A stretch of 64,000 bases of DNA from Gillisia sp. Hel1_33_143 (GTDB taxonomy: Bacteria > Bacteroidota > Bacteroidia > Flavobacteriales > Flavobacteriaceae). Below are positions 25,313 to 44,637 of the stretch, piece after piece (the stretch's first letter is position 1; the number at the start of each line of letters is the position of its first letter). The stretch is taken from contig NZ_LT629737.1 of the NCBI RefSeq assembly GCF_900104765.1, positions 620,001 to 684,000 on the forward strand. Reading direction: 5' to 3'. The notes under the pieces are model-generated. The model was not told the DNA's origin. It worked only from the letters and a program-made list of their open reading frames with translations, and made no database searches. Position numbers and translations under genes: made by a program.

Positions 25313-25315
25313 CTT
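25299..25315. repeat. attL: left 17-bp direct repeat of the integrated element
   Basis: The sequence TCCCGCCTCGAGTACTT, comprising the last 14 bases of tRNA-Leu plus 3 more, occurs again exactly at 59387-59403. Flanks differ on both sides. This is the pattern left by tyrosine-recombinase integration into a tRNA 3' end. Confidence 0.9.
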
Positions 25316-27976: not shown

Positions 27977-27985
27977 GTTAGTATT

Positions 27986-28654
27986 TTACTCAAGTCTTGT
28001 CCAAACTTGTTCCTGATTGTTTTTATTTAAAGTTATAATCTCATTTTTTCTTCTTTGAAGAATTTGTAAAGTGTCAATTTGGTTGAGAATTGGTGTTGGA
28101 GCAGATCCTCGTTTCCATTTTCTTAAATGAACTATATTTTCGTAATTGTATTTTTGATTGAATGGAATTTTTACTTCATCATAACCTACAAATGAAATAG
28201 TTAATTCTGCGTTACGGTTTTCTTTATTCAATACTAATTTACCATTACCAGATTTATTTGAAGTAACTCCATTATTATCTGCAAGAATGTAAATGTTAGC
28301 GTATGGAATAGGATTACCTTCTAAATCAAATACATCTACCTTTAATTCCACTTTTTCATTATCATTAATCCAAAATTTGGATTCAAAATAACTCTTCTTT
28401 AATGGTTTTGTCAGATTGTAATTTAAAATTATTCTTTTTCTATCTAGGCTGTAGGTTCCAATTCCGTATTCCTCAGTTCCTAAATGTCCTGAGTGTTCAT
28501 ATTCAAAAATTCCAGTTTTTGAAAAATTAATCGAAGTAGAAAAATCTCCAGTCGGACTTGGAAGTGAATATAAACCTTCTATTGTTTTCTGTGCTGAAAT
28601 CTGATACGGAAGAATTAAAAGGAAGATTAAAGTCAGTTTGAAAAAATTATTCAT
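27986..28654 (-). CDS. Cassette gene: secreted carboxypeptidase-regulatory-like protein
   Basis: A 222-residue protein with a signal peptide (MNNFFKLTLIFLLILPYQ, cut probably after ISA). The start at 28654 is preferred to an upstream start that lies in attC site 2. From about residue 90 a beta-sandwich domain is visible, with FDLEGNPIPYANIYI and FVGYDEVKIPF, characteristic of CarboxypepD_reg-like domains. The protein is probably periplasmic or exported; no function is known. It ends 10 bp from attC site 1. Confidence 0.65.
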   Translation of the reverse strand: MNNFFKLTLIFLLILPYQISAQKTIEGLYSLPSPTGDFSTSINFSKTGIFEYEHSGHLGTEEYGIGTYSLDRKRIILNYNLTKPLKKSYFESKFWINDNEKVELKVDVFDLEGNPIPYANIYILADNNGVTSNKSGNGKLVLNKENRNAELTISFVGYDEVKIPFNQKYNYENIVHLRKWKRGSAPTPILNQIDTLQILQRRKNEIITLNKNNQEQVWTRLE

Positions 28655-28678
28655 TGTTATATTTTTCTGAAATATTAA

Positions 28679-28812
28679 CCACAACGGTCTTGGTTAAGGC
28701 AAGTAGCGTGGAGTAGGGACGCGTTCTTGTCGGCTTAGTTGTTTTTTACTTGGTCTCTAAAATAGCACTTTTCACTAGAATGCCCGCTATTTGCGCTTAA
28801 CCGATGTTGTAA
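28679..28812 (-). repeat. attC-like site 2
   Basis: 134 bp. R'' CCACAAC and R' GTTGTAA form the ends; GGTTAAGGCAA and TTGCGCTTAACC form the inner arms with unequal spacers. Class A (central GGGACGCGTTCTTGTCGG). Confidence 0.8.
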
Positions 28813-28819
28813 AACGTTT

Positions 28820-29599
28820 TTATTCCACCCATTCTTTAACAAAATTTTCTCCGTCACCAATTAACGTTAAACTGGTATTACCTTTTCCTCCTCCGATTTC
28901 TAAAATTTTATCAAGACCATTCTTGAATTTCAAACTAACCAATTTATCATTAAATTTAAAATCTCCCTTTAGTATTTCTCCATCTCCATAGTCAAATATA
29001 AAAGTTCCGTTGTCATAAAAACTTATTTTTCTAATGGCATAATGTCGTGTCCACCAGTTACCAACTAAATTTTTTATAGTATATTTTTTTAAATCATAAT
29101 TTTTTTTAATGGTCAAATCAGTCATCTTAGAATAAAGTCTTCTTTCATCATTTTTTAAAACTTTTATAAAAATCCCCATTGACTCTTCCGTTTCTCCCAT
29201 ATAATTATTCTCGACAATATATTTCCAATTATCGTTTTTGAATGAATAATGATATCCACCACCAGTGCCTTGTTGCTCAACTATTCCATCATACAAGACA
29301 AGGTCAGGTTCATCATTTATAGTCTTTGGTTTATTCCAGGAACTATATCTTAAATCATCATTAGTTAAATTGTCGACTTTTATTATAAAATCCTTGTTTT
29401 CGCAATAAATTATATTATCATTTAATTCAGAGTCAGATTCTATCTGATTATTCTGAATCTTAATTTCTTTTGAAGCGGAATCAAGTTTATTTTCATTTGT
29501 AGTTATATCAATTTCACCTTGTGATAAATTATTTTCATTGTCAGAATTTTTACACGATAAAATCGTCATAATTAAAATAAAACTGTATAGTATTTTCAT
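28820..29599 (-). CDS. Cassette gene: lipoprotein of unknown function
   Basis: 259 residues with a lipoprotein signal, MKILYSFILIMTILSC, cysteine at 16. The first ATG that gives this signal is at 29599; an upstream start would fall close to the attC. After a linker rich in N, E and S, there are two possible beta-rich parts; the second reads GNWWTRHYAIRKISFYDNG and FDYGDGEILKGDF, lipocalin-like in pattern. I cannot name a family. Membrane-anchored in the envelope. Confidence 0.6.
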   Translation of the reverse strand: MKILYSFILIMTILSCKNSDNENNLSQGEIDITTNENKLDSASKEIKIQNNQIESDSELNDNIIYCENKDFIIKVDNLTNDDLRYSSWNKPKTINDEPDLVLYDGIVEQQGTGGGYHYSFKNDNWKYIVENNYMGETEESMGIFIKVLKNDERRLYSKMTDLTIKKNYDLKKYTIKNLVGNWWTRHYAIRKISFYDNGTFIFDYGDGEILKGDFKFNDKLVSLKFKNGLDKILEIGGGKGNTSLTLIGDGENFVKEWVE

Positions 29600-29623
29600 T
29601 GTTTGTTGAATTGGCAAAATGTT

Positions 29624-29754
29624 TTACAACGTGATTGTATAAGATTAGTGGCGTGTTTAAGCACCTAATTTAGCAAATAAACACCAGGTAGAAAATCCGC
29701 GAGGATTTTCGTAAGTAGGCGAGAACTAGCCATTAATTTTATACGGTGTTGCCA
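29624..29754 (-). repeat. attC-like site 3
   Basis: 131 bp, class B: R'' TTACAAC, inner arms GTATAAGATTAG and TTTTATAC, R' GTTGCCA. The centre folds as GAAAATCC/GGATTTTC. Nearly identical to site 8. Confidence 0.8.
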
Positions 29755-29766
29755 GTAGTATTTTTA

Positions 29767-30483
29767 TTAAGCTTGTAAGTTTTCCTTTTTTTTCAATTTT
29801 CCTCGCTGATATTTTTCAACCATTTTTGTTTTATACGATGTATAATCTCTTTTATGTAAGTTTCTTTTGTTTTCCTCAATTAATTTATAATTCTTGTCGA
29901 AATCTCTGTCAAAGGTTGCTTCTGAAATTATTAAATCGTGAATCAAAAAAGAAAGTCCTGTTAGTAGTTTTCTCTTAAGTTGAAGTTTTACAATGTTTTC
30001 TTGTCTTAACTGTCCAGTCAATTGAGTATTCGCATTCTTTAAATCAGTTGTAAATGCATATTTCCATTGTCCGTGTGCAATTCTATTCCGAAGTTCAATT
30101 GAAGGAAGTAAATCGCTTTCTATTAGATGATGGATTTCTAAATATCTATTTTTTGGGGTAAATGGTAATTGAGAAACAAAATCCACTGTTGGGTTTATGT
30201 TATATGCTTTACAAACTGCTATTTTTAAGGCATTTTTCCACTTAAATGCTAAAGTTCCAGAATTAATTATTATTCCGATTTCGCTTTGAGTAAAAGCATT
30301 GTCTTCATAAGTAAGTTTCAAAATTCTTACTTCTGACCAACAAGTAACTAAATAAGATAATATTTTCGTGTATTTATAAACCTTGCTTTCTTGCTCTGTA
30401 GAAATATATCTACGTAAATCGCTTTCAACTAATTTAATAGCTCCTTCAATTTCTCTTAAGTTATCACAATGTTTTGAATACAT
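29767..30483 (-). CDS. Cassette gene: helical protein with HEPN-like RNRIAH motif
   Basis: A 238-residue, mostly helical, positively charged protein without signal peptide. Near residue 132 the sequence LRNRIAHGQW contains R-x4-H, the active-site pattern of HEPN ribonucleases. This suggests, but does not prove, a HEPN-like nuclease that could act in defence. No partner antitoxin is visible in the cassette. It ends 12 bp from attC site 3. Upstream in the cassette is a tRNA-like remnant and then an IS3 insertion. Confidence 0.5.
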   Translation of the reverse strand: MYSKHCDNLREIEGAIKLVESDLRRYISTEQESKVYKYTKILSYLVTCWSEVRILKLTYEDNAFTQSEIGIIINSGTLAFKWKNALKIAVCKAYNINPTVDFVSQLPFTPKNRYLEIHHLIESDLLPSIELRNRIAHGQWKYAFTTDLKNANTQLTGQLRQENIVKLQLKRKLLTGLSFLIHDLIISEATFDRDFDKNYKLIEENKRNLHKRDYTSYKTKMVEKYQRGKLKKKENLQA

Positions 30484-30503
30484 ATTTATATTTTAAGTGA
30501 CTT

Positions 30504-30617
30504 CGACTGCCAGAGAAAACCTTAATTTGCTCTGGCAGTCGGGAATCGAACCCAACTAGACTTCCAATTCAGTAGATAAATCTACCTTGTTGACTGTGTT
30601 TCCATTACACTATCACC
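30504..30617 (-). other. tRNA-like remnant with 12-bp inverted repeat
   Basis: On the minus strand, a D-arm-like GTGTAATGGAAACAC (30596-30610) is followed after an irregular middle part by a perfect T-arm, GGGTTCGATTCCC (30541-30553), and CTGCCAGA as an acceptor-like 3' part. There is no matching 5' acceptor upstream; instead its complement CTCTGGCAGTCG/CGACTGCCAGAG forms a hairpin (30504-30515 with 30530-30541). I read it as a scrambled or decayed tRNA in the cassette leader, not a working tRNA. Confidence 0.4.
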
Positions 30618-30693
30618 CTAAAGTTTGTCTATAGTCACTATTTTTGTATTATACTGATATAGGTTGACCATTTTTGGTTCAATTTTCGACAGT

Positions 30694-31560
30694 TTAAATG
30701 GTCAATAGTTCTAAATTTTGTTTGTTCCTTTTGTAGGAATGATAGTCTACATTTCTATTCAAATGAACAAAGTTAGGGGTGTTCAATTTGAGACTAAAAT
30801 GTGGTCTTTTGTTGTTGTAAATCTCAACAGCCCTTTTGACCATCTTCTTCGCTAAGTTAGTATTTTTTACAGTTCGTTTTAAATCGTATTCATATTTAAG
30901 GGTTCTGTTGACTCTCTCAGCCACGGCGTTCTCATACGGATCGTACTTCTCAGTCATGCTCATCAGTATTCCGTGTTCCTCAGCAAAGCTGGTGTATTGG
31001 GGATTGCAATACTGAATTCCACGATCGGAATGATGGATGAGTTTCTGATTTTTGTATTTCCTGTTTTTAATGGCCATTCTAAGCGCATCAATGCAAAGTG
31101 ATGTCTTCATATGACTTGCTAATTTATAACCCATAATTTGCTTAGAATAGGTGTCTGTGACTAATGCCAGGTAACTGTGTCCGTTCTGTGTTTTGATATA
31201 GGTAATATCACTTACCCAAAGTTGTTCCGGTCTGGTGGGCACTTTATCTTTTACCAGGTTCTTGTATTTAAAGAATCGATGTTTTGAATCGGTTGTAATA
31301 TGGAACCGCTTTAATTTAGGAACGAGCAGGTTATTCATTCGCATTACACGATAGAATTTATCTCTTCCTATTTTAATGCCAAGTCGGTTCATATCAGCCT
31401 TTAATTCCTGATATAGTTTAATTCCACCGGTACGCAGTCCATACTGACTCCGATACTCTTTGATGAGTCGAATGATTAGCTGTTGCTGTGTTTGCCTTTT
31501 CTGATGAGATTTTAACCGCTTATAGAAAGCTTGTTTAGAAACCCCAAAACATTGGATCAA
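30694..31560 (-). CDS. IS3 transposase OrfB (DDE integrase core)
   Basis: 288 residues from a TTG at 31560, but probably made mainly as an OrfAB fusion through frameshifting. HTH_21 region at the N-terminus, then the rve core with WVSDITYI (first D), HHSDRGIQY (second D) and the glutamate in DPYENAVAERVNRTLK. Complete, so the IS may be active. Confidence 0.9.
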   Translation of the reverse strand: MIQCFGVSKQAFYKRLKSHQKRQTQQQLIIRLIKEYRSQYGLRTGGIKLYQELKADMNRLGIKIGRDKFYRVMRMNNLLVPKLKRFHITTDSKHRFFKYKNLVKDKVPTRPEQLWVSDITYIKTQNGHSYLALVTDTYSKQIMGYKLASHMKTSLCIDALRMAIKNRKYKNQKLIHHSDRGIQYCNPQYTSFAEEHGILMSMTEKYDPYENAVAERVNRTLKYEYDLKRTVKNTNLAKKMVKRAVEIYNNKRPHFSLKLNTPNFVHLNRNVDYHSYKRNKQNLELLTI

Positions 31561-31946
31561 CCATTTTCTTTTAAACGGTTTTGCTTCTTTTTTTCGATCT
31601 CGTCTGCTAATGTTTTGGGCAATGACTTTTTTGACATATCAACTCCTGTAATGAGCTCCATGTCAGCAATAATGTCTTGTTGGAAGTCTTTTACAAACTC
31701 CAGTTCCTCTATTTTTTCTTTGAGTTTCTTAATTTCATCTTTCTTGCTCATCCCTTGTTTCTTTTGTTCTAAAGTACTGTATTTTTTCAACCAGTAATAG
31801 ATGGAAGCTCTGGAAACCTGATATTTATCGGAAGCATGATTGATAGAGATTTGTGCATTTTGGATCTGATCAATAATAACTAGCTTAAGATCATACCCTA
31901 CTTTTTTGTAGGAAGTTTTTCGACAGTGTTCATTTTGTTCTTTCAT
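31557..31946 (-). CDS. IS3 transposase OrfA (helix-turn-helix)
   Basis: 129 residues. The N-terminal HTH (KLVIIDQIQNAQISINHASD) would bind the IS ends, and a C-terminal leucine-zipper-like coiled coil (about 80-118) follows. It overlaps OrfB by 4 bp and contains the slippery A AAA AAG near its end. Confidence 0.9.
   Translation of the reverse strand: MKEQNEHCRKTSYKKVGYDLKLVIIDQIQNAQISINHASDKYQVSRASIYYWLKKYSTLEQKKQGMSKKDEIKKLKEKIEELEFVKDFQQDIIADMELITGVDMSKKSLPKTLADEIEKKKQNRLKENG
31587..31593 (-). promoter_or_regulatory. Programmed -1 frameshift heptamer in the IS3 element
   Basis: AAAAAAG, in the register A AAA AAG of orfA. After a -1 shift the frame stays open into OrfB, which gives the usual OrfAB transposase. 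Confidence 0.75.
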
Positions 31947-32014
31947 TAGGTATAGTGCTAAAAGGTTTAATTTTTAGTCAACCTATTTCAGGAAAGTACA
32001 TTTAATTCGCTTGC

Positions 32015-32146
32015 AGGTAACGGTCTCGGTTAACGCAAGAAGCGGGTTTATATACGTGATAAAGTCGGTTAAACTATTTCTTGTTTGATGACTAAAATAA
32101 TACTTTTAACTAAATGCCAGCGTATTTGCGATAACCGATGTTGCCT
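32015..32146 (-). repeat. attC-like site 4
   Basis: 132 bp. R'' AGGTAAC and R' GTTGCCT; inner arms GGTTAACGCAAG and TTGCGATAACC. Class A but diverged from sites 2 and 9. Its R'' does not match the R' of site 3, so the cassette between them is probably composite. Confidence 0.75.
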
Positions 32147-32167
32147 AACGTTTTGTTTGCCGACTTC

Positions 32168-32767
32168 TCAATAATTGTTCTCGCTTTTTGGCGGAGGAGG
32201 TGGTGGTGGCATTTGTCTCAAATAACTAAATAAAAAACGCAACTTTATTGAATCCTTGACCTCATTTTTCACTTGATCAAAGTCCCGTGTTAATTTTGTC
32301 AATATTTTTTTTAGTTCTGCCCCAGATTGACTTGTGTCAATTGTAATTTCTATTGCTGCTTTATATGCAGATTCCGAGTAATATGGAATATTATTATTGT
32401 TTAAATAGTGCCTTTTCAATATTCTCTTAAGCTCCGAAATAGGATATCCGTTGTCAATTAAAATAGAATCTGTTGTTATACTCAGCATATTTCGTTGTTT
32501 AATCAGTCCATTTCCGCGTACAGAAGGAATTATTCTTTTAGTTATTTTATTATCTTCAAATTCAAGTATTGATAATATTCCATTATACTGATTATTACCA
32601 ATCCAATTTGTGATTTTCTTGAAATTCATTTGAGTAGTATCCAAGATCATCTTTTGAACCTTGTCATTATTTGAAATTTCAAAATTTGGATAATATCGAA
32701 TTTCACTTGTTTTCTCATTACAAGCTAAATTCATTAGGATTATCGATATGAGCAGAATTTTCTTCAA
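32168..32767 (-). CDS. Cassette gene: lipoprotein with poly-proline tail
   Basis: 199 residues. I place the start at the TTG at 32767, which gives a compact lipoprotein signal (LKKILLISIILMNLAC read with Met first); a TTG at 32779 lies inside attC site 5. The C-terminus has seven consecutive prolines before KSENNY. No known domain is recognised. The next gene's attC is used as leader. Confidence 0.55.
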   Translation of the reverse strand: MKKILLISIILMNLACNEKTSEIRYYPNFEISNNDKVQKMILDTTQMNFKKITNWIGNNQYNGILSILEFEDNKITKRIIPSVRGNGLIKQRNMLSITTDSILIDNGYPISELKRILKRHYLNNNNIPYYSESAYKAAIEITIDTSQSGAELKKILTKLTRDFDQVKNEVKDSIKLRFLFSYLRQMPPPPPPPKSENNY

Positions 32768-32773
32768 AATGTT

Positions 32774-32906
32774 TGGCAACGTTTGGTATATGGGCTGTGG
32801 CGTGGGTTTATTACGGACGATTCCAAACAGATACTTGCCAGAGGAAAATCCGCAGGATTTTCCAAGTATGGACTGACCAAGCCATAGCTTATATAAGGTG
32901 TTGTAA
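32774..32906 (-). repeat. attC-like site 5
   Basis: 133 bp, class B-like: R'' TGGCAAC, R' GTTGTAA, centre GGAAAATCC-GCA-GGATTTTCC. Confidence 0.75.
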
Positions 32907-32910
32907 CACG

Positions 32911-33438
32911 TTATTTTTTAAATTCCGATTTGTTCTTAATTACAAATGCCATTAATAATTCGGTCAAATTATCTTGATATTCATAAAATTCTGAATCGCA
33001 TTTGTTCCAGTTTTCCTCCGCTGTTTCTTCAATTAATTCCAGTTCATTTTGTCTTTCAGTTCTGTCTTTGGGAACAGTTCCGTTTTTAAATTCAGAGTTT
33101 GCCTTTTTTACAATTTCCGCTGTTTTTTCCGCACCAATTTCAAAAAGAGCATTTACAGTTTCTTGACTAAAATCTCCGCTTGAATTAAAATAGAATTGGT
33201 TAAATCCGCCATTATTTATTTCACGCTCTAAATTTTCCACGAAGAGAAAAGTTCTTTGGGAAGGATTCAGTTTTTCGATATTCTCGCCATATTCAGATTT
33301 TGAATTCAGATAAATGTCAATTTTCATAACAATCATATCACGCCTTTCAATTTTCAAAACTTTTTCCAAATCAAATTCAGTTTGCGCATTTGCGTTGGCA
33401 AAGAATAATGACGATATAAATACTAAAATTTTCTTCAA
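32911..33438 (-). CDS. Cassette gene: DMP19/DUF4375-family secreted protein
   Basis: 175 residues with a signal peptide (MKKILVFISSLFFANANAQ). The middle carries the DUF4375 pattern NGGFNQFYFNSSGDFSQETV followed by LFEIGAEKTAEIV. Known members are small proteins of unclear role, some proposed as nucleic-acid or phosphatase-binding proteins; an exported version is unusual. It ends 4 bp from attC site 5. Confidence 0.75.
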   Translation of the reverse strand: MKKILVFISSLFFANANAQTEFDLEKVLKIERRDMIVMKIDIYLNSKSEYGENIEKLNPSQRTFLFVENLEREINNGGFNQFYFNSSGDFSQETVNALFEIGAEKTAEIVKKANSEFKNGTVPKDRTERQNELELIEETAEENWNKCDSEFYEYQDNLTELLMAFVIKNKSEFKK

Positions 33439-33458
33439 TGAAAGATTTTTTTAATGTG

Positions 33459-33591
33459 TTACAACGGTCTTGTTTAACGCAAGTGGCGTGGAGTAAGGAC
33501 ACGTTCTTGTCGGTTTTGTTCTTTTCTTACTTAGGATACTAAATTACACTTTTTAGATAATACCCGTTATTTGTGATAACCGTTGTTGGGC
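33459..33591 (-). repeat. attC-like site 6
   Basis: 133 bp, class A: R'' TTACAAC, R' GTTGGGC, inner arms TTTAACGCAAG and TTTGTGATAACC. The R' box GTTGGGC is exactly complementary to R'' of site 7. Confidence 0.8.
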
Positions 33592-33595
33592 TTAG

Positions 33596-34261
33596 TTATA
33601 CTTTTAGTATTTTTCTACCTTGACGGATAAAATCGTCATAACTATTGCAAATGTCATCTGCTAATTTGTTTAATTCCTCAACGGCATTTTCATAGCGTTC
33701 TTTTTGCTCATATCTCCATTCTGGAGGAACAGATTGACCATCTCGACCATGACCAAAAGTATTTGTCGTTAAAGACTCATTAAAGTGTTTAATATCCTGA
33801 ACCATTATTTTCTTTAGTGATTCTAATTTTGGATTTAGAAATTCAAAATCTGATTTAAAGCTTTCGTGTTCGATTTTTATCAAAGGAGTCATATATTTAT
33901 CTAAAAATGCCGAACCGAAGTGTTGAGTTCTTAGCCAATAGATAATTCCATCTTGTCGCAGAAAATCTTTTTGAATTTTTTGAAATAATTGACGGTCTAC
34001 TGTGATTGATTCGGGATCATACTTATAATTATTCTTATTATTCAATAATTTGTGAACAGTAAAAAGTCCTAAAATTAAAAGGAAAATTGTCACAACATAA
34101 AGCCATAAATCTATTTTATAAGTCCAAAATATTTCAAATTCTTCAGCAAAGCTTTCATTGTTAATCCTACTATTAATTAATGGAACTAAATTAGGTATTA
34201 TGAGAAATATTAAACCAATTATTATATTACTTATATATTGATTATTAAAGAATTTCTTCAT
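33596..34261 (-). CDS. Cassette gene: two-helix membrane protein of unknown function
   Basis: 221 residues starting MKKFFNNQYI at 34261; the longer frame runs into attC site 7. Two transmembrane helices lie at about 10-30 and 52-74, then a 145-residue soluble helical part with many charged residues. No family recognised. The arrangement of membrane anchor plus cytosolic domain fits a sensor or effector, but that is inference. Confidence 0.6.
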   Translation of the reverse strand: MKKFFNNQYISNIIIGLIFLIIPNLVPLINSRINNESFAEEFEIFWTYKIDLWLYVVTIFLLILGLFTVHKLLNNKNNYKYDPESITVDRQLFQKIQKDFLRQDGIIYWLRTQHFGSAFLDKYMTPLIKIEHESFKSDFEFLNPKLESLKKIMVQDIKHFNESLTTNTFGHGRDGQSVPPEWRYEQKERYENAVEELNKLADDICNSYDDFIRQGRKILKV

Positions 34262-34293
34262 CTCGTTTAAAATGCAATTTTGTGTATAATTAT

Positions 34294-34425
34294 GCCCAAC
34301 GGTCTCGGTTAACACAAGTTGCGGGAGTAGGTATGCGGACTTGTCGGTTTAAATATTTACATACTTAGGATACTAAAATACACTTTTTCGACAAAACCCG
34401 TTATTTGTGATAACCGTTGTTGTGA
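34294..34425 (-). repeat. attC-like site 7
   Basis: 132 bp, class A: R'' GCCCAAC, R' GTTGTGA, inner arms GGTTAACACAAG and TTTGTGATAACC. R'' is the full RYYYAAC consensus. Confidence 0.8.
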
Positions 34426-34499
34426 ACTGGGGCGACTACTACAAAATTTTCAAAGGTTTTAAATCCACTAAGGTTAATTTTAAAAGTATATTAGAAGTG

Positions 34500-35036
34500 T
34501 TAATTGTATTTCATATCAAAACGGCCTTCACGTATTTCCACAGTTTCTCCCTCTTCACTGATGGCATCAAACCAAAAAGTACCTGAAACAATTCCATTTA
34601 TTTCATCAAATTTTGAGAATTTAATTTCGCCTTTATGAATTCCAGAAGTTTTGTATATAAGTAATCCTCCATTTAAAATATAATTTGCGTTAAATGATAT
34701 TTCTCCTTCTTTTTCTAATGAATAGGTTTCCTTCTCTTTAAGAATTATTTTATTTCCAAATATTGCGATTAGTTGATTTGTATTCTTATTAATTCCCTTC
34801 AATCCAAAATAAAAATAGCCATTTAGTATTTTATAGTATGCCTGCTGTGTGGGACCACTTAGCTGGCTACCTCCCGTCTCGAAAACCTTCCCATTAATTA
34901 AGCAACCGAAAGTCCCAACTCCAGTTTGCGTTTCTGGCGGCAAACAATCTGCGGGGTTGTCGCAATTGTCCTTTTTGGAACAGGAACTAATTGTCAAAAC
35001 AAAAGAAAGTAAGATCAAATAAATACCTGTTTTCAT
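34500..35036 (-). CDS. Cassette gene: DUF6252-like lipoprotein
   Basis: 178 residues with a lipoprotein signal (LILLSFVLTISSC). The beta-rich body begins GTFGCLINGKVFE and ends VEIREGRFDMKY, a pattern I associate with DUF6252 lipoproteins of Bacteroidota. It would be anchored in the outer membrane or inner leaflet; function unknown. Its stop is 74 bp from attC site 7, farther than in the other cassettes. Confidence 0.7.
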   Translation of the reverse strand: MKTGIYLILLSFVLTISSCSKKDNCDNPADCLPPETQTGVGTFGCLINGKVFETGGSQLSGPTQQAYYKILNGYFYFGLKGINKNTNQLIAIFGNKIILKEKETYSLEKEGEISFNANYILNGGLLIYKTSGIHKGEIKFSKFDEINGIVSGTFWFDAISEEGETVEIREGRFDMKYN

Positions 35037-35194
35037 ATCATTATATTTTACTTAGTTTTCAATTCTGAAGTCTTCATATTATTCTTAATCATACAAGAGT
35101 TTTGAGTATATCGTAACACTAATTTTCAAGTTTTAAATTTTCCAACGTTGAATTTTGCTTATGTTTTCTGTTGTGATTTTATTGGAGCCCTTGT

Positions 35195-35326
35195 TTACAA
35201 CGGTTTTGTATAAGATTAGTTGCGTTGTTTAAGCACTTAATTTAGCAAATAATAACCGAATTGCAAATACGCGAGGATTTTCGTAAGTAGGCTTGCACTA
35301 GCAATTAATTTTATACGGTGTTGTAC
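35195..35326 (-). repeat. attC-like site 8
   Basis: 132 bp, class B: R'' TTACAAC, R' GTTGTAC, inner arms GTATAAGATTAG and TTTTATAC. Close to site 3 over most of its length. Confidence 0.8.
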
Positions 35327-35333
35327 ACTGGCT

Positions 35334-36254
35334 TTAGTTCAATATATATATTAATGAAAAAATTGAAATAAAAATCCACAAAGTTAGTGCGAATACAATG
35401 GGTTTCATTCCTGTAGATTTCAAATCTTTTATAGAAATGGTAGAACCTACAAGAAACAATGTTATTATTAATAATCGTTTAGCCATTAATACAATAAAAT
35501 TAGTAGCTGGTTCAGGTAAAATATGGTAACTATTAATAATAATCGCAATAATAAATAAAACAATAAAGTAAGGAATTTTTATTTTTTCTCCTTTTGTTTT
35601 GAATAGAAACATTGAAAAAATTGATAAAGGGATAATCCACAAAGTTCTAGATAGTTTTACTGTTGTTGCTATTCTCAAGGCTTCGTCTCCATAACCTAGC
35701 GCAGCTCCGACTACCGAACTTGTATCGTGTATAGCAATAGCACACCATAAGCCAAATTGTTCTTGTGTTAAATTTAGAAAATGACCGACTGCAGGAAACA
35801 CAAACAACGCAATAGAGTTTAATAGAAATACGATACCTAAAGCAATACTTATAGTTTTACTTTTAGCTTTAATTACTGGGGAAATTGCAGCAATTGCGCT
35901 TCCACCACAAATTGCTGTTCCAGATGTAATTAGATGACCTAGTTTTAAATCTAACTTCAAAAGTCTTGTTAACAACAAACCTAACGATACGGTTAAAAAT
36001 ATTGAATATATAGTTAAACTTAATCCCTCTTTACTTGTTTCCAAAGTTTCTTTGATAAACATCCCAAAGCCCAGCCCTACAACCGAAATTTTTAGAAAAT
36101 AATGAATTGCTTTATGACTGTATGCTTTAAACGGATTATTGAAAATAAGTGTATATACAAAACCAAGTAACAATGCAGTTGGACTGTTTATAATGCCTAA
36201 AAGGGCAATAATAATTATAAGGAAGTAAACTATTTTTGAAAAAATCTCTTTCAT
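35334..36254 (-). CDS. Cassette gene: YeiH/UPF0324-family putative sulfate exporter
   Basis: 306 residues, about nine hydrophobic helices. The start is the ATG at 36254. Seen: the conserved LVYTLIFNNPFKAYS and GTAICGGSAIAAISPVIKAK, then AIHDTSSVVGAALGYGDEA, the family hallmark. It is shorter than many members (about 330-350). The family is thought to export small sulfur compounds, perhaps sulfite or sulfate; evidence is limited. It shares a cassette with a LysR regulator upstream in the same direction, which is unusual because the pair is divergent in most genomes. Confidence 0.85.
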   Translation of the reverse strand: MKEIFSKIVYFLIIIIALLGIINSPTALLLGFVYTLIFNNPFKAYSHKAIHYFLKISVVGLGFGMFIKETLETSKEGLSLTIYSIFLTVSLGLLLTRLLKLDLKLGHLITSGTAICGGSAIAAISPVIKAKSKTISIALGIVFLLNSIALFVFPAVGHFLNLTQEQFGLWCAIAIHDTSSVVGAALGYGDEALRIATTVKLSRTLWIIPLSIFSMFLFKTKGEKIKIPYFIVLFIIAIIINSYHILPEPATNFIVLMAKRLLIITLFLVGSTISIKDLKSTGMKPIVFALTLWIFISIFSLIYILN

Positions 36255-36330
36255 ATCATTTAGTATTATTTGATACAAAAGTAGATTGAATTAATAACCT
36301 TTAAGCAAATTAATTAGTTGTTTGAGATAA

Positions 36331-37215
36331 CTAAAAGTTATAGTTAAGCCGAATATATTTTTCGAAATATTCCACGGTATTTGAAAGATAACCTGTTCTT
36401 TTTACAAAATAAAACCACCTTTCAATACTTAAATCTTTAATATCTATAATTTTGAGTTTATTATTTAACAAATCTTCAGTGATAGCACTAATTGAAAGAA
36501 GTGCATAATCATCAGAATTGTATAAATAATTTTTAATAGCTTCAGTACTGTTTAAAGTTACTGCTACATTAAGCTTTTTGATATTATTTTCCAATAAAAA
36601 TTTATTAATAATTACTTTAGTTCCAGAACCTTTTTCACGTTCAATCATTGGAATTCTTTGCAACTTTTCGATATCGATACTTCCTTTTTTAAAAGAATTA
36701 TTATTAACATTGGTTACGAGGACAATTTCATCTTTAATAAATTTTTCAAATTGTAATTTTGGATTCGAAATACTTCCTTCAGTAATTCCGAAATCAATTT
36801 CCTGATTCAAAATTAAATTTTCAATATTTTCAGAATTATTACTGATTATGTTAAAATTTGTTTCAGGAAATTTTACTCTAAACTTCGCAATTATTTTAGG
36901 TATAATGTAGTTAGACAAGGTTGTGCTTACTCCGAAGTTTATTAGTTTTGGGAAGGTTTCTTTCTTATGTAGAAACTGTTCGTCCATTTCAGAATAGATA
37001 GCTAAAATTTTATTAACGTATATAAGAAATGACTTTCCTTCCTTGGTCATTTCTATCGAGTTTCTTTTTCGAATAAATAACGTTGTTTTATATTCTTGCT
37101 CTAAATTTTTAATTGCCTTGGATATAGCAGGCTGTGAAATATACAATTGCTCGGCAGCTTTTGTGAAGCTTAAATGTTTAGCAACAATTTTGAATATATG
37201 TAACTTGGTTTTCAT
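36331..37215 (-). CDS. Cassette gene: LysR-family regulator of the YeiH-like exporter
   Basis: 294 residues. The N-terminal winged HTH (SFTKAAEQLYISQPAISKAI) is at about 17-36; the ligand-binding domain (about 90-290) follows. LysR regulators related to YeiE/CysL usually control the neighbouring sulfur exporter. The start is at an ATG that lies 9 bp from attC site 9. The pair makes this the only two-gene cassette. Confidence 0.9.
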   Translation of the reverse strand: MKTKLHIFKIVAKHLSFTKAAEQLYISQPAISKAIKNLEQEYKTTLFIRKRNSIEMTKEGKSFLIYVNKILAIYSEMDEQFLHKKETFPKLINFGVSTTLSNYIIPKIIAKFRVKFPETNFNIISNNSENIENLILNQEIDFGITEGSISNPKLQFEKFIKDEIVLVTNVNNNSFKKGSIDIEKLQRIPMIEREKGSGTKVIINKFLLENNIKKLNVAVTLNSTEAIKNYLYNSDDYALLSISAITEDLLNNKLKIIDIKDLSIERWFYFVKRTGYLSNTVEYFEKYIRLNYNF

Positions 37216-37223
37216 CAGCTTGT

Positions 37224-37356
37224 GTACAACGGTCTTGGTTAAGGCAAGTTGTGGGAGTAGGGATGCGTTCTTGTCGGTTTAGTTGTTTTTTACTTGATGT
37301 CTAAAATAGCACTTTTCACCAGATTGCCCGCTATTTGCGCTTAACCGATGTTGTAC
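37224..37356 (-). repeat. attC-like site 9
   Basis: 133 bp, class A: R'' GTACAAC, R' GTTGTAC, inner arms GGTTAAGGCAAG and TTGCGCTTAACC. Nearly the same as site 2. Confidence 0.8.
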
Positions 37357-37365
37357 ACAGCCATT

Positions 37366-38166
37366 TTATACTACTAAGTTCATGTCAATTAAATAGCCGC
37401 TATTCCTTAACTCCTTTGCTAAATCAAATCTCCAATCATTTTCAAACGGTATATATACAACACCAGAGATATCATTAGGTATTTCTACATTTCCTTTAAC
37501 TAATGCACACACATTATTTCTACCAATTTTACCAATAAGATACCCATGTTCAAATACAACATTTTGTCGGGCGCGATGTTTTAAATTATCATAATCATCT
37601 CTCTGACTTCCTTGGTCACAAGGGGTATACAATACAACTCCAAATCCAACATTTGAATATTCCTCAATTTTTTCAATAATAGTTTTTCCTGAACTCGCTT
37701 TTTCATGAAGAATAATAGCCTCTAAACCTAGTTTTTCAATAAATCTAGCAGTTTCAATTTTCGCAAGTTCATCATGTCCATGAACAATAAACACACTATT
37801 TGGTGGAGTGTCAACAGAATTTTTAGCTGAAAATTTAGGCTTATTGTCTGATAAATGATGTTTAACCTTTGAATGTGCAATTTTCAGTTCAGATACTGCA
37901 TTTAAAAGGATATTCGAACCAAACATGTCATTAATAGTTAATGATTTTCTAAATATATTTTTAGCTTTAGCTAATTCTTTTTCATTATAAATATTGTTTT
38001 CAAAGATAGGTTCGAGCGCACCTATTGCTTCTGCTGCTAAATTTTGATTTTCCGATAAAAGTTCTTTTTGATTTTCTAAGAATTTTTTCTCAGTTACAAG
38101 TAAATGAATCTCATTAAAAGAATTTGTAGCTTGATCAATTAATGTTAATATTTTTTCTTTGTTCAT
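37366..38166 (-). CDS. Cassette gene: TIR-like nucleotide-binding effector (CAP12/Pycsar-type TIR)
   Basis: 266 residues. Residues 1-110 are helical, of unknown fold. The C-terminal domain, from NSVFIVHGHDELAKIE at about 122, is TIR-like: EAIILHEKASSGKTIIEKIE with the likely catalytic glutamate, then VLYTPCDQG and RQNVVFEHGYLIGKIGR. This is the predicted nucleotide-binding TIR family found as NAD-cleaving effectors in CBASS or Pycsar defence. No cyclase is near, so it may act alone or with a chromosomal partner. As first cassette at the promoter-proximal end, it should be the best expressed gene of the array. Confidence 0.8.
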   Translation of the reverse strand: MNKEKILTLIDQATNSFNEIHLLVTEKKFLENQKELLSENQNLAAEAIGALEPIFENNIYNEKELAKAKNIFRKSLTINDMFGSNILLNAVSELKIAHSKVKHHLSDNKPKFSAKNSVDTPPNSVFIVHGHDELAKIETARFIEKLGLEAIILHEKASSGKTIIEKIEEYSNVGFGVVLYTPCDQGSQRDDYDNLKHRARQNVVFEHGYLIGKIGRNNVCALVKGNVEIPNDISGVVYIPFENDWRFDLAKELRNSGYLIDMNLVV

Positions 38167-38585: not shown

Positions 38586-38735
38586 CTTTACAAATAAAAT
38601 GGAACAATCATTAAAAAGTTCGGATTAAAATCCGAATAATAAAATATTTTATTATATTTACCTGATAATATTATATTTGCGAAACTTCTTTAAGTAAAAT
38701 ATTTGAAGCATTTCGCTTTGAATCTCGACTTTAAA

Positions 38736-38857
38736 ACTGGTAATTTTATGCAACGAGATGATAAGCAAGGATGCTCACGACCCGGGGCGTGGGCTCTCTT
38801 ATCGTTGCAAGGTATACCAGTACCCTAAGTCGGTAAGTTGAGTTACCACGCCTTTTT
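38736..38857 (+). ncRNA. Structured leader RNA upstream of the sigma factor
   Basis: A GC-rich island with nested stems: ACTGGTA (38736-38742) pairs with TACCAGT (38815-38821); GCAACGA (38750-38756) with TCGTTGC (38802-38808); GCTCACG (38773-38779) with CGTGGGC (38788-38794). A further hairpin GGTAA/TTACC (38832-38847) follows. The strand GGCGTGG (38786-38792) can instead pair exactly with CCACGCC (38846-38852), which is followed by T5: a terminator-like alternative. The two folds exclude each other, so it may be an attenuator or riboswitch-like leader for the gene at 39065. No known RNA family recognised. Confidence 0.45.
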
Positions 38858-39064
38858 ACTTGTAGAAAGAGGCACTTCTTCTCAGCACAATTTCAAAGCT
38901 TCTTCTTTTAGAAAATTTTAGAACTCGCATAGCTATTGGATATATCCATTTCTGGATTTTTCTTAATAGCCACAGCTTAATTCCCTACATAATGCTGTAA
39001 TCGCAGGTAAAAACCTGTGCAATTAAATTTTAATGATTATATCATAATTCAAAAGAGTTCTATT

Positions 39065-39829
39065 ATGCGGGATAATAATTATGAACTATTAAAAGTTGGT
39101 GATTCATCAGCGCTGGTGCATATTCACGCCCGATATAGTCGGATGGTCTATTGGCTGGGAAAAAGAATAATCAATGATGATTTTGTAGTAGAATCTTTAG
39201 TGCAGGACACCTTCTTAAAGTTATGGGCGAACCGCGATAAGATCGAGTCAGAAAAACATCTCTTTTTCTTTCTACGAATGGTGATGAAAAGGGAATGTTA
39301 CTCCTATTATACTAGTCCTCAATGTAAGTTCTTTGAGAATATAAATTCTTTAGAAAGCTATGATAACTACCAAGATTATTTAGCCGGCTATGATCCGAAG
39401 GAAGATGCACAAAACTGGAAAGATCAGGAAAATCAACAGGAAGATTTTGATCAAATAATCAAAGTATTACCCCTACTCCAACCTGATAGAAAACGACTGA
39501 TTGAACTCTGTTTAAAATATGAATTCCGCTATAAAATAATAGCTAAGCTAATGGGTACAGGTATTACTGAGACTCGTAATGAGGTAAGCAAAACTATCCA
39601 AGATCTTAAGAACATCATTAACCAAAATAATGTCCTTGAGGTACATCAGCCATTTAAATTAAAATGTGATAATAAGGTTCAGGTTACCCAAGAACAACAA
39701 AAGGTTTTAGAGCTGCGATGTAAACACAACTATTCCTTTACCTCAATCGCCAATGAACTTAATATTTCTCAAAAGGAAGTACATACAGCATTTATTAAAG
39801 CTTATAAGCTGATGCAGGAGGTACAGTAA
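39065..39829 (+). CDS. ECF (sigma-E type) RNA polymerase sigma factor paired with dead Cas12f
   Basis: 254 residues from the ATG at 39065. A GTG at 39017 would add 16 residues but lies in a hairpin stem; I prefer the ATG, preceded by AAAGAG. Region 2 is at about 8-80 (RMVYWLGKRIINDD, VVESLVQDTFLKLW, FLRMVMKREC), which binds core polymerase and the -10. Two sigma-4-like HTH segments follow, at about 135-185 (PDRKRLIELCLKYEFRYKII) and about 206-253 (QEQQKVLELRCKHNYSFTSI). ECF factors usually have one and are about 160-200 residues. No anti-sigma gene is adjacent; instead the Cas12f-like gene starts 22 bp downstream, so the two are co-transcribed. The inferred role is recruiting RNA polymerase to sites chosen by the guide RNA. 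Confidence 0.85.
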   Translation: MRDNNYELLKVGDSSALVHIHARYSRMVYWLGKRIINDDFVVESLVQDTFLKLWANRDKIESEKHLFFFLRMVMKRECYSYYTSPQCKFFENINSLESYDNYQDYLAGYDPKEDAQNWKDQENQQEDFDQIIKVLPLLQPDRKRLIELCLKYEFRYKIIAKLMGTGITETRNEVSKTIQDLKNIINQNNVLEVHQPFKLKCDNKVQVTQEQQKVLELRCKHNYSFTSIANELNISQKEVHTAFIKAYKLMQEVQ

Positions 39830-39851
39830 CACCAATTAGAACCGGTTTGAG

Positions 39852-40949
39852 ATGGCAAAAGATACGATGAAATTGACCCGAAAGATCCAACTCCTTATCG
39901 ACCTTCCTACCAGCGAAGAACGAAAGGAGGCGATGGATAAGCTATATCTATGGCGTAACCGTTGTTATCGGGCAGCTAACCTTATTGTTTCTCATTTATA
40001 TGTTCAGGAGATGGTTGAAGACTTCTTTTATTTAACTGAAGAAATTAAGTATAAACTGGTAGATCAAAAAAAAGATGAACAGGGAATTCTAACCCGATCC
40101 CGGATCAACTGTACCTATCGAATGATTTCAGATCGCTTTAAAGGGGAAATTCCCACTAACATTCTAACCAACTTAAATAGTACCATCCTGAGTTCTTTTA
40201 AGAAAAACAGACAAGAATACTGGTGCGGGGAACGTTCCATAAATAATTTTAGGAGAGATATGGCCTTTCCCTTTGATATGGAAGGAGTATGCGGATTGAA
40301 ATATAATACGGAAAAGAATGCATTTTGTTTTCGGCTTTTTTCCGTTCCCATGAAAACCTATTTAGGAAAAGACTATTATGACAAGAGAAAACTGATGCAG
40401 CAGGTTGCAAGTGGAGAGATCAAAATACGGACTTCTCATATCCAATTAAAAGATGGTAAGATCTTTATGTTAGCGGTCTTTGAATTTGAAAAAGATGAAC
40501 ACGTCCTTAAACCAGAAGTGATCGCCGAAGCTTCGTTGTCCTTAGAATATCCAATTGCCGTGAAAATTGGCAGTGCTAAACTCACCATTGGAACAAAAGA
40601 AGAATTCCTCTACCGAAGACTGGCCATACAGGCCGCACAAAAAAGAACCCGAGAAGGAGTTACCTATTCTAAATCTGGAAAAGGTCGTATAAGAAAGACC
40701 AAAGCTTTAGCCAGATTTTGTGATACAGAGCGGAATTATGTTCATAATAGACTGCATGTTTATAGCAGAAAGCTAATCGACTTCTGTATCAAACATAAGG
40801 CAGGAACTCTTATTTTATTGAATCAACAAGAAAAATTGGAAATAGCTAAAGAGGAAGCATTTGTACTTAGGAACTGGAGTTATTATGATCTCATGACCAA
40901 GATAAAATACAAAGCAGAAAAATCTGGTATAGAGCTTATCATAGATTAA
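39852..40949 (+). CDS. Nuclease-dead, truncated Cas12f/TnpB-like RNA-guided protein (dCas12f)
   Basis: 365 residues. The C-terminal half follows the Cas12f/TnpB pattern: RuvC-I region at about 226-240, then EFLYRRLAIQAAQKRT, GKGRIRKTKALARF, DTERNYVHNRLHVYSRKLID and the late helix RNWSYYDLMTKIKYKAEKSG (340-359). Where active enzymes have the RuvC-I aspartate (GVDLG) this protein has SLSLE, and the RuvC-II glutamate region (KMEDLS) reads LLNQQEK. The protein ends at 365, so zinc finger and RuvC-III aspartate are absent. All three catalytic acids are therefore missing. The N-terminal 215 residues form the WED/REC-like part. With a sigma factor 22 bp upstream and a guide-RNA-like sequence 12 bp downstream, a DNA-binding role without cleavage is the best reading. 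Confidence 0.85.
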   Translation: MAKDTMKLTRKIQLLIDLPTSEERKEAMDKLYLWRNRCYRAANLIVSHLYVQEMVEDFFYLTEEIKYKLVDQKKDEQGILTRSRINCTYRMISDRFKGEIPTNILTNLNSTILSSFKKNRQEYWCGERSINNFRRDMAFPFDMEGVCGLKYNTEKNAFCFRLFSVPMKTYLGKDYYDKRKLMQQVASGEIKIRTSHIQLKDGKIFMLAVFEFEKDEHVLKPEVIAEASLSLEYPIAVKIGSAKLTIGTKEEFLYRRLAIQAAQKRTREGVTYSKSGKGRIRKTKALARFCDTERNYVHNRLHVYSRKLIDFCIKHKAGTLILLNQQEKLEIAKEEAFVLRNWSYYDLMTKIKYKAEKSGIELIID

Positions 40950-40960
40950 GAATTAATTAT

Positions 40961-41062
40961 CGAGGGTGCTTGTACACCCGTAAGGTGAGGTGAATTGCAC
41001 ACTCACTAAATGCGCTTAGCATATACAACGCGTGAGTGAAACTTATAATTAATATTTCCCAA
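40961..41062 (+). ncRNA. Candidate guide RNA of the dCas12f system (scaffold plus guide)
   Basis: It starts 12 bp after the dCas12f stop. GGGTG-CTTGTA-CACCC (40964-40979) is a first hairpin. CACTCAC (41000-41006) pairs exactly with GTGAGTG (41032-41038), enclosing ATGC-GCTTA-GCAT. The scaffold ends GTGAGTGAAAC at 41042, like the 3' end of Cas12f direct repeats, so the guide should start at 41043 with TTATAATTAATATTTCCC. GTGAG at 40985-40989 is a competing partner for CTCAC. Two small hairpins, ACCG/CGGT and ACGGT/ACCGT (41064-41083), may mark the 3' end. Boundaries are inferred. Confidence 0.65.
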
Positions 41063-41083
41063 AACCGATAACGGTAAAACCGT

Positions 41084-41898
41084 CTTGTAGAGTGATTAAA
41101 TATAATTTAAAGATGACACTACATTTTAAATGGAGTGAAATGAATCCATGCATACATATAATTCATCTATTTTCCTGAGAGAAAGTTTTTATGGAGATAT
41201 TGTAAAGACTCCTATTCAATAGCAATAGTAAGTAACCGTTCAGCACATTCCCACTTCATTTCGCAAAAGCTTCATTCCGGGAAAAGCGCTTCTCTAAAAA
41301 GATCTTGAACAACAACAAAAATTTTGATCTCCCTTACGCTAATCCGAAGAAAATATCGGAACGCTTCAGTCTAATGCAAAGCTTTTTGCTGGAGTTCGTC
41401 TAATTCAGATTCATATCTTGATTTCCTTATGAACGGATGGAATTAGTAAAATAAATAATTAGAGGATGGATCTAAATTAAATTCAACTTCCCATCACACG
41501 GCGTTCCTGTAAATATGAACATCTTCAACATATTCTGATTTTAGCAAGCTTCATATTAAATCCCCCTTCTTCTCCCTCAACTTCTACTCCACCCCATCTA
41601 TTCCTTTTTTCTATATGCGAAATACCAGAATATAGAAGTTAGCCGGGCTGCATAAGCCGGTCGGCTGCGCCCTTCCTTTTATAAGCCCTCTCTAATTCTA
41701 TATCCTGAATCTGTATCTGCATCAAAAAAGGAAATAGCATACGGCTCTGTAAGAAGTAAATCAATTAAGAATATCATGAGATCAATACATAAATACATAT
41801 CCTCAATCAGAACAAAAAATCAAAAAAGGAAAGCTCCGGATAAAAAAAGTAATTCAATTATTAATCAGGTCTGTCAAACGACCATAACACTTAACATT
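41084..41898. other. Long gap after the guide RNA
   Basis: About 815 bp with no convincing protein on either strand. A GC-rich patch, GCCGGGCTGCATAAGCCGG (41643-41661), can fold. The motif GAGTGAAA occurs again at 41133, with no repeat structure around it. It probably holds decayed genes, since it leads to an ssb fragment. Confidence 0.4.
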
Positions 41899-41979
41899 AT
41901 GAGTATGATCAAAAACAAAGTTCAGCTAATGGGGGATTTAGAAAATACTCCCGAAATCAAAAATTTTTCTAATGCCTAA
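41899..41979 (+). pseudogene. ssb remnant (N-terminus of single-strand DNA-binding protein)
   Basis: 26 codons, MSMIKNKVQLMGDLENTPEI and six more, then a stop. The first 20 residues follow the start of Bacteroidota Ssb (NKVQLxGxLxxxPEI); the OB-fold that should follow is missing. Elements of this type usually carry ssb near radC, so this is a truncated copy. Confidence 0.65.
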
Positions 41980-41990
41980 CCTTTAAAAAC

Positions 41991-42026
41991 AAAGAGGGCG
42001 TCCCGTTCAAAGTATCGCCCTCTTTT
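41991..42026 (+). terminator. Intrinsic terminator after the ssb remnant
   Basis: AAAGAGGGCG pairs with CGCCCTCTTT across a 15-base loop, and T residues follow. It separates the remnant from radC. Confidence 0.75.
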
Positions 42027-43084: not shown

Positions 43085-43612
43085 ATGACAACAAAATCCA
43101 GACTTCAGATACAATCAAAAACTGCCAATAGATTCCGGGAGTTTTCTAAGAAAAACAACAGCAATCAATCAGAAACTTTAGATCTGATCCTTGATTTTTT
43201 TGAGAAAAATAACCTCTCCCCTTTTGAGACTTTAGTCCCTTCAAAAGTGAGCTTGGAAACCCTGATCAAAAAAAGGATCGATGCTGTGATTGCTATTTTA
43301 AAAAATATTGAAAAGACCCAAACCAAACCTGGTTTTCTCATGTTGGAATTACTCATGGAGGGACGCTCCATTTCAAAATCCATATTAGTTGAAAAGAATA
43401 CAAGTTCCTCTTTTAATGAGAAAAGTTTAGAACAATTGGAATTGGAAATCTCCAGACTCGAAAAAGTATTAAAAGCAACCAAACAAGATCTAGAATATTT
43501 GCTACAAAAGGTGGAAGTAAAGGCGAACACTTTTGGTGCAGATTATCTAAAACTAAACATCTCTCCCACAGAATTTGAAGAGTTTAAAATAGCCATAAAA
43601 CGTAGATCATAA
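43085..43612 (+). CDS. BfmA/BtgA-family mobilization accessory protein
   Basis: 175 residues. An N-terminal ribbon-helix-helix-like part (RFREFSKKNNSNQSETLDLI) is followed by SPFETLVPS and KKRIDAVIAILKNIEKTQTK, the family pattern, then a coiled coil at about 118-150. It is thought to bind oriT and assist the relaxase. The stop TAA overlaps the ATG of the relaxase by 1 bp. Confidence 0.85.
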   Translation: MTTKSRLQIQSKTANRFREFSKKNNSNQSETLDLILDFFEKNNLSPFETLVPSKVSLETLIKKRIDAVIAILKNIEKTQTKPGFLMLELLMEGRSISKSILVEKNTSSSFNEKSLEQLELEISRLEKVLKATKQDLEYLLQKVEVKANTFGADYLKLNISPTEFEEFKIAIKRRS

Positions 43613-44637
43613 TGTATATCACAATCTCTGCTCAGAAACTAGGTGGCGCTTACTCGCAAAGTGCAGGTGATTTTGTGAGCTATCTCGAAAAAGAAAACCA
43701 GGGGAAAAGCCTTATGGATAAGGAATACTTTTTTGATCAATACGAAGATAAAATCTATCCATATCAGGTAATCAAAGAGATCGATGAAAATACTTCCAAA
43801 TTAAAACTCAAGGAACCTAAATATTATTCCATTACCATAAATCCAAGTAAATACGAGTTAAAACACATTCATAACAATTCAGAAAAACTCCGGGAGTTTG
43901 TCCGGGAGGCCATGAAAGAGTATGCTGGTTCTTTCAACAGGGAAATTAATGGGAAACCCATAGGCGTAGATGATATTAAATATTTCGCTAAGATTGAACA
44001 GGAACGTACTTATAAAAGTAACGATATAGCAATTCGGGAAAATAAACCCTACAGTAATCAAATAGCACATCTTAAAAATGAGCTGCGGAAAGTAGAGCGC
44101 GGGGAAATTTCCGGGAATATCCGTCAACTAGAAAATGATATCCATAAGCTGGTCAGCGATGCGCCGTATAAATTTCAAGGACAGGTGATTGAACCGGGAA
44201 TGAAAAAAGAAGGCTTGCAAAGTCATATCCATATTATCGTTAGTAGAAAAGACGCCTCTAATTCTTACAGTCTATCTCCGGGTAGCAAATACAAAGCTTC
44301 AGAAGTGGAGATGCACGGTAAAATGATAAAACGAGGTTTTGAAAGGGATCGTTTCTTTCAGAGTTCAGAAAAAGCATTTGATAAGATGTTTCAGTATAAC
44401 CGTAATTATGTGGAAAGCTATACTGCTCGCAAGATACTCAGCAAAGATCCAAAGCAATATTTTTTAAGTTTAAGAAGTCTTGGGGTCAATGAGAAAAAGA
44501 TCGCCTTTAAGATGATCCGGGAAACAGGCTTGCAATTACCAGTATTACATCTTCCTACCAGTACAGCTGGGATCGCTTTTAAACAACTAAAAAGAATAAT
44601 TGAAGTAAGTCTTAAAGCAAGTTCTATTGGCTATTAA
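43612..44637 (+). CDS. MobB-type relaxase (DUF5712)
   Basis: 341 residues. The N-terminus is TISAQKLGGAYSQSAGDFVS, typical of this Bacteroidota family. The histidine triad is at QSHIHIIVSRKD (about 203-214), preceded by tyrosines in YYSITINPSKYEL that may include the nicking residue. It would nick oriT and lead the strand into a mating channel given in trans. No coupling protein is encoded nearby. Confidence 0.88.
   Translation: MYITISAQKLGGAYSQSAGDFVSYLEKENQGKSLMDKEYFFDQYEDKIYPYQVIKEIDENTSKLKLKEPKYYSITINPSKYELKHIHNNSEKLREFVREAMKEYAGSFNREINGKPIGVDDIKYFAKIEQERTYKSNDIAIRENKPYSNQIAHLKNELRKVERGEISGNIRQLENDIHKLVSDAPYKFQGQVIEPGMKKEGLQSHIHIIVSRKDASNSYSLSPGSKYKASEVEMHGKMIKRGFERDRFFQSSEKAFDKMFQYNRNYVESYTARKILSKDPKQYFLSLRSLGVNEKKIAFKMIRETGLQLPVLHLPTSTAGIAFKQLKRIIEVSLKASSIGY

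Follow-up and report, generated by a model that had tools for sequence, protein, structure and literature searches.

A dCas12f–sigmaE locus in Gillisia sp. Hel1_33_143 and a covarying leader RNA as a possible natural address of its relatives

Introduction

Transcription directed by a guide RNA has reportedly been described for systems that pair a nuclease-dead Cas12f (dCas12f) with the sigma factor sigmaE, and is said to begin at a constant spacing of about 46 bp from the target. The targets of these systems are marked by a 5'-G adjacent motif. The locus considered here encodes full-length homologues of both proteins of the dCas12f–sigmaE systems deposited as PDB entries 9n9c, 9n9m, 9n9o and 9n9q, and its guide RNA likewise follows dCas12f; unlike those systems, it is present in two copies in this genome, is accompanied by a conserved leader with two possible folds and has a guide for which no good target was found. 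Cas12f of type V-F belongs to the same protein family, but here the catalytic residues are lost and a repeat search of positions 38600–42000 gave no CRISPR array. RuvC-dead, RNA-guided DNA binding for gene control is also a property of TldR (PMC13418256), a group of TnpB-like nuclease-dead proteins that are repressors, unlike the sigma-linked system here; the portion of that paper available to us names no sigma partner.

The system itself is already known, whereas the leader as its natural address had not been met before in the literature within our reach. A search of that literature, which included few subscription papers or preprints, returned no account of the leader; it could be among the 64 structured 5' regions of a flavobacterium given in a paper that was accessible in part (PMC9723704). 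By a natural address we mean a covarying, terminator-like leader with a switching arm that is identical or nearly identical to the guides of many relatives, and we regard an attenuator leader in this role as a lead worth following. As in attenuators and riboswitch-like leaders, one arm has two potential partners, one upstream and one in a terminator that ends in a T-run; the present leader differs in fitting no Rfam family and in having a shared arm that doubles as a guide sequence.

The dCas12f–sigmaE locus

The window, by which we mean the whole stretch of 64,000 nucleotides that was analysed, is C1:620001–684000 of the 3.48-Mb genome of Gillisia sp. Hel1_33_143. An ECF sigma factor gene, the sigmaE/RpoE of the dCas12f system, lies at 39065–39829 on the plus strand (ATG at 39065; 254 aa) and is followed after a 22-bp gap by the nuclease-dead Cas12f gene at 39852–40949 (plus strand; 365 aa), so that the order of an ECF-type sigma gene and a Cas12f/TnpB-like gene given in the initial annotation is confirmed by the open reading frames, Pfam and the PDB matches. 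The sigma protein matches Sigma70_r2 (8e-8) and Sigma70_r4_2 (3e-6) in Pfam, and its best match in a phmmer search of the PDB is 'RpoE' (9n9q_C; E 1e-92). The same kind of search aligned residues 1–364 of the dCas12f protein with 'Nuclease-deactivated Cas12f' (9n9c_A; E 4.9e-173), a full-length match to a solved dCas12f that supports the proposed relationship to Cas12f; other Cas12f entries match more weakly (9nzo/9nzr; 5e-42). A Pfam scan of this open reading frame gave no match, and the PADLOC model PDLC01699 for Cas12f (type V-F) fits the protein at E 1e-48.

The loss of all the RuvC acids, also proposed from the letters, holds as well. In the phmmer PDB alignment Ser (ASLS) takes the position of the RuvC-I Asp (VDLG). 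The RuvC-II letters are LLNQQ and lack the acid at the catalytic place, and the protein ends in GIELIID, ahead of where RuvC-III and the zinc ribbon would follow. Across 12 aligned proteins, that of the window included, N or D stands at the RuvC-II place. Relatives of dCas12f were found at E ≤ 1e-60 in 19 of 397 genomes of the family, own genome included, and thirteen loci of named genomes also carry a relative. Homology to solved members and the guide-RNA model described below agree with the earlier call of an RNA-guided transcription family (dead Cas12f, ECF sigma and guide RNA), and the assignment of the locus to the known kind of dCas12f–sigmaE system, judged by homology, is well supported. 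The locus is adjoined by a TIR protein of the candidate defence family PDC-S35, encoded at 37366–38166 on the minus strand.

The guide RNA and its classes

The structured RNA that had been predicted 3' of the Cas12f-like gene was recovered by our guide-RNA model R1, with a match that begins at 40960. The scaffold spans 40960–41029 (plus strand), ends in ATACAAC and scores 88.5 bits (E 3.9e-19) in a model that has the window's own guide RNA among its training sequences; no other guide RNA in the window reaches E ≤ 1. R1 was built on a 35-row scaffold alignment (A1) that we trimmed by hand at ATACAAC, so the alignment by itself is silent on where the scaffold ends. The end is indicated instead by the relatives, whose scaffolds agree as far as ATACAAC and then continue into letters that vary between systems, even within one genome. 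The letters GTGAGTGAAAC, which the initial annotation had read as a repeat-like end of the RNA, are therefore part of the guide, and that reading had misplaced the guide; a guide start after GTGAGTGAAAC is ruled out since the letters after ATACAAC form different classes in the relatives. The misplacement matters: it would have sent target searches astray, and a genome search with the wrongly placed guide recovered the guide loci alone. We place the 17-nt guide GCGTGAGTGAAACTTAT at 41030–41046 (plus strand), the identity to a second copy of the system stopping at 41046.

The same guide RNA element was found behind dCas12f in the relatives. In an R1 survey that scored 150 of 687 first-look candidates, guide RNAs at E ≤ 0.01 number two in this genome and up to 12 in others. 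Among 60 guides that were read, 39 open with up to three G and then CGTG (in one case with an A in between), typically GCGTGGGCTCTCTTAT; ten carry TTCCC or CTCCCC close to their 5' end, and the remainder belong to neither class. Guide RNAs also occur with no dCas12f in the stretch examined, at L086/L056 (G309:C1:1067985) and L089 (G400:C118:172668), the former being 640 kb from the only dCas12f match of its genome. Two further candidates for this group, L085/L055 and L088/L076, were rejected, as both follow a dCas12f gene.

A leader RNA with two possible folds

At 38678–38862 on the plus strand, 5' of the sigma gene, lies a conserved leader RNA with two candidate folds, identified from a model match, folding statistics and covariation. 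The letters TATATTTG just 5' of it (38672–38679, plus strand) form a candidate -7 box of the Bacteroidota type, with a putative promoter role. The leader model R2 matches 38723–38859 with 144.8 bits, the leader itself being in the R2 training set, and the folding z of the window leader is -4.07. One arm, GCGTGGGCTCTCTTATC at 38787–38803 (plus strand), is common to both folds; it equals the commonest guide of the relatives and has a G before it. The 3' arm of a terminator-like hairpin, with its T-run (T5 at 38853–38857), is assigned to 38833–38857 (plus strand) from the minimum free energy and covariation. The terminator part, 38786–38862, has a minimum free energy of -30.8 kcal/mol (z -4.38), and 38832 to 38862 folded alone gives a weak hairpin of -5.1 kcal/mol. 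The terminator-like fold can be written as GGCGTGGGCTC-N-CTTATC pairing with GATAAG-TT-GAG-TT-CCACGCC followed by the T-run; the leader thus contains a G+C-rich hairpin with a T-run and compensatory changes.

In an alignment of 32 leaders the antiterminator-type fold has 95.8% of cells paired and double changes at 17 of 40 pairs, and the terminator fold has 98.8% of cells paired and double changes at five of 15 pairs. For both folds none of 500 shuffles was as high on cells paired, double changes or covariation score; on the number of pair types, 5/500 and 1/500 shuffles were as high for the antiterminator-type and terminator fold, respectively, and controls with slid pairing gave 34–55% paired for the two folds. 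Compared across leaders, the RNA ahead of the sigma gene thus covaries and could adopt either fold. When the two upstream helices in which the shared arm takes part are scored separately, 98.8% of their cells are paired, yet only two of 13 pairs show double changes. As 146 of 500 shuffles equal this value, the competing state is less firmly shown than the terminator; the competing upstream pairing draws its support from the upstream fold considered in full. Rfam gave no match at the window leader or at the leaders of the relatives, so that no known Rfam family fits it. The part of the 5' UTR past the terminator-like hairpin, 38863–39064, is 93% identical between the two copies of the system, like coding DNA, and a further RNA or site may lie there.

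Guides that match leaders

We compared 43 guides (41 from relatives and two own) under 22 genome labels, two of which are the same locus, with the leaders of their own genomes; 17 further guides under eight labels were dropped, there being no leader to compare. Sixteen of the 43 match the shared arm of a leader in their own genome at 14–16 of 16 bases, each of them above all 300 shuffles of that guide, and in 15 of these 16 cases a G stands just 5' of the site. Counting relatives' guides, 15 of 41 have a match of at least 14/16 with a G before it. The other 27 guides fall below 14/16, two reaching 13 and 25 lower, and include those of class B (below). The identity of guide and leader is partly circular, because many leaders outside sigma operons were found by a guide-like pattern (a 16-base pattern near the common guide, with up to two mismatches, run on 18 genomes); the leaders before sigma genes were found through their own conserved letters, not by this pattern. 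Directly 5' of the arm 31 of 32 leaders have a G; because this G takes part in the terminator pairing in 30 of 32 rows, it cannot count separately in favour of a target-adjacent motif.

Class B guides (CCTTCCC...) come from other genomes and match a different hairpin, 81 bp before susC in the Gillisia genome. It lies at about 4342–4378 of locus L050 and is also found before susC in L087, L091 and L092, with arms like GCCTTCCC/GGGGAAGGC about 80 bp 5' of susC. No class B guide is present among the R1 guide RNAs of the Gillisia genome. We also looked at co-variation of guide and leader between genomes: in G380 the leader reads GTGTGGG, as do the letters behind a later, incomplete scaffold copy, whereas G162 combines a GTGTGGG leader with a GCGTGGG guide. 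With one genome in agreement and the other not, no such co-variation is claimed.

Proposed mechanism

The site in the window begins at 38787, and relative to this base the terminator arms are at +1 to +17 (5') and +47 to +66 (3'). dCas12f with its guide RNA would open the DNA at the G-preceded leader site and bring sigmaE and RNA polymerase; transcription would start downstream of the R-loop, within the leader, giving a transcript with the 3' arm of the terminator and lacking the 5' arm. Every start between +18 and +66 would leave out the 5' arm, and without this arm the transcript would escape attenuation. The nutrient-uptake operon would thereby be switched on, as would the system itself where the leader precedes the sigma gene. 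We consider it likely that a dCas12f–sigmaE system acts at the G-preceded leader site in this way, with attenuation escaped and the uptake operon turned on. For systems with a matching guide, we infer that bypass of an attenuator is the simplest reading. Its full form, in which the guide addresses the shared arm, the start falls between the terminator arms and both susC/susD and the system itself are activated, is offered more tentatively, as a possibility that we would not yet favour over its negation. If starts do fall inside the leader, a promoter-independent activator would be useful in that it skips a built-in brake; and if the scheme is true, one guide would activate susC/susD operons and, via the leader before the sigma gene, itself.

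The guide RNA might instead act on the leader transcript, pairing with the 3' arm of the terminator or the 5' arm of the antiterminator and so shifting the switch. The guide is indeed a sense copy of the shared arm, the partners of that arm are conserved and class B guides likewise copy a hairpin arm. The class B matches, however, run on through the hairpin loop, which would be needless for such pairing, and the solved relatives belong to the Cas12f family, which is DNA-targeting; we judge pairing with the transcript to be highly improbable.

Distribution and neighbours of the leader

The attenuator bypass also has to be weighed against where the leader is found. In the Gillisia genome it recurs at C1:239840–239975, before an operon with susC, susD and M16 genes (Pfam). 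Eighteen stretches from the pattern search were read, which with this own susC site make 19. A SusC-like gene follows the site in 11 of them; one has an ECF sigma gene downstream, one a HEPN-domain protein and one a sigma–dCas12f operon, four are themselves guide RNAs (two directly behind a dCas12f gene), and one has no open reading frame of 90 aa ahead of the contig end. Over 30 leader loci, a SusC-like gene follows in 19, as read from N-terminal letters (and by Pfam for L050 only).

R2, a model trained on leaders of dCas12f genomes, detects the leader in 65 of the 397 family genomes: in 17 of the 19 with dCas12f and in 48 of the 378 others (Fisher p 8e-13, without correction for relatedness). 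In the dCas12f genomes 16 of 37 leader matches are within 4.5 kb of dCas12f. The 48 other genomes gave no dCas12f at E ≤ 1e-6 except for a decayed piece in G021, and a leader specific to dCas12f is accordingly rejected; its presence in 48 genomes that have no intact dCas12f argues that it has a role of its own. The most fitting view of the leader is that of a host element to which dCas12f systems are directed.

This distribution also suits an explanation in which the leader is a mere host attenuator and a convenient address: transcription would still be RNA-guided, with starts proximal to susC or elsewhere and no bypass of the terminator. Besides the 48 genomes, the position of the class B hairpin, at 81 bp before susC a more promoter-like distance, speaks for it. 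Against it, the commonest guide class (39 of 60) resembles the shared arm of the leader, and leaders stand before sigma–dCas12f operons, with the 16 of 37 matches close to dCas12f noted above. We regard this explanation as unlikely.

Two genomes, G309 (same genus, with dCas12f and three guide RNAs) and G378, show no leader at the threshold and with the strict filters used. At G021:C1:23251 (L162) the decayed dCas12f piece is accompanied by a guide-RNA match, and that genome retains three leaders. A susC frame of G402 contains a second 16/16 site (L094; G402:C68:54356–54371); it is an exact copy of the leader target, including the flank ACCCGG, and is unexplained by the leader idea.

The second copy and the guide of the window

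The second copy of the system is at C1:3114707–3115801, with 95% protein identity. DNA similarity between the copies is 91%, running from 38644 to 41046 and thus also spanning about 420 bp 5' of the sigma gene; it stops after the 17th guide base, the guide being identical at 17 of 17 positions and homology ending right behind it. Between the copies dCas12f has a dN/dS of 0.062 and sigma one of 0.152 (dS 0.36–0.37), values that indicate that both proteins have been kept. Under neutral drift at about 28% synonymous difference, the chance of a 17/17 identical guide is about 0.3% by our own arithmetic. The flanks of the second copy (L051:12634–17838) hold a set of genes that resembles a defence system and encodes a methyltransferase, a PRTase-CE protein and an ORC-CDC6-like protein.

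The search for guide targets suggested by the initial annotation did not bear out a target for the own guide: beyond the guide loci none was found in the own genome. Outside the two guide loci no site carries a G followed by the 11-base seed when up to one mismatch is allowed, and three mismatches in 17 are reached at six further sites against eight for the reversed pattern, so that matches are at chance level and no target with the 5'-G motif emerges. Against the three own leaders the own guides reach at best 9/16, within the range of shuffles. The leader of the second copy matches the first eight bases of the own guide (GCGTGAGT), with a G before them.

The failure of this genome search to give a good target would be expected if the window copy were a relic, or were aimed at DNA absent from the genome, such as a plasmid, a phage or another strain. 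The proteins of both copies are nevertheless intact and under purifying selection, both copies carry the same 17-nt guide despite the synonymous-site difference of about 28%, and the first eight bases of the guide are present, after a G, in the leader of the second copy; we thus hold a relic or a foreign target to be rather doubtful. On the attenuator-bypass reading, the own guide of the window copy would have drifted from the leader.

A putative mobile element and more distant relatives

An exact 17-nt copy of the 3' end of tRNA-Leu bounds 25299–59403, as a left direct repeat in the tRNA-Leu 3' end (putative attL, 25299–25315) and a right direct repeat (putative attR, 59387–59403), both on the plus strand. 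Between them lie a tyrosine recombinase (25550–26773, plus strand) and a MobB family relaxase (43612–44637, plus strand; NF041495, 7e-113). The locus had been described as cargo of an element in tRNA-Leu; the repeats, recombinase and relaxase add to this and make it plausible that the dCas12f locus lies inside a mobile element. In G111 the left-hand similarity to the window extends beyond the tRNA as far as 25376, no similarity to the right flank was found, and no integrase is present in the 1.5 kb after tRNA-Leu.

Spread between strains, also envisaged in that description, did not gain support: the plasmid and phage record sets gave only weak, partial dCas12f matches under 30% identity, and IMG/VR gave one relative. 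That relative is a 374-aa dCas12f-like protein of 35% identity on a phage-like contig (L175:5004–6128), so labelled from our reading of terminase- and portal-like genes. R1 guide-RNA matches lie on either side of its gene (best E 1.7e-5); the open reading frame before it has no Pfam match, and no sigma gene was recognized there by eye.

Within the element of the window, 27846–37355 holds eight copies of a repeat family of about 130 bp, often ACAACGG...CCGATGTTGT, between genes that are mostly on the minus strand. These repeats look like the attC sites of an integron cassette array carried by the element.
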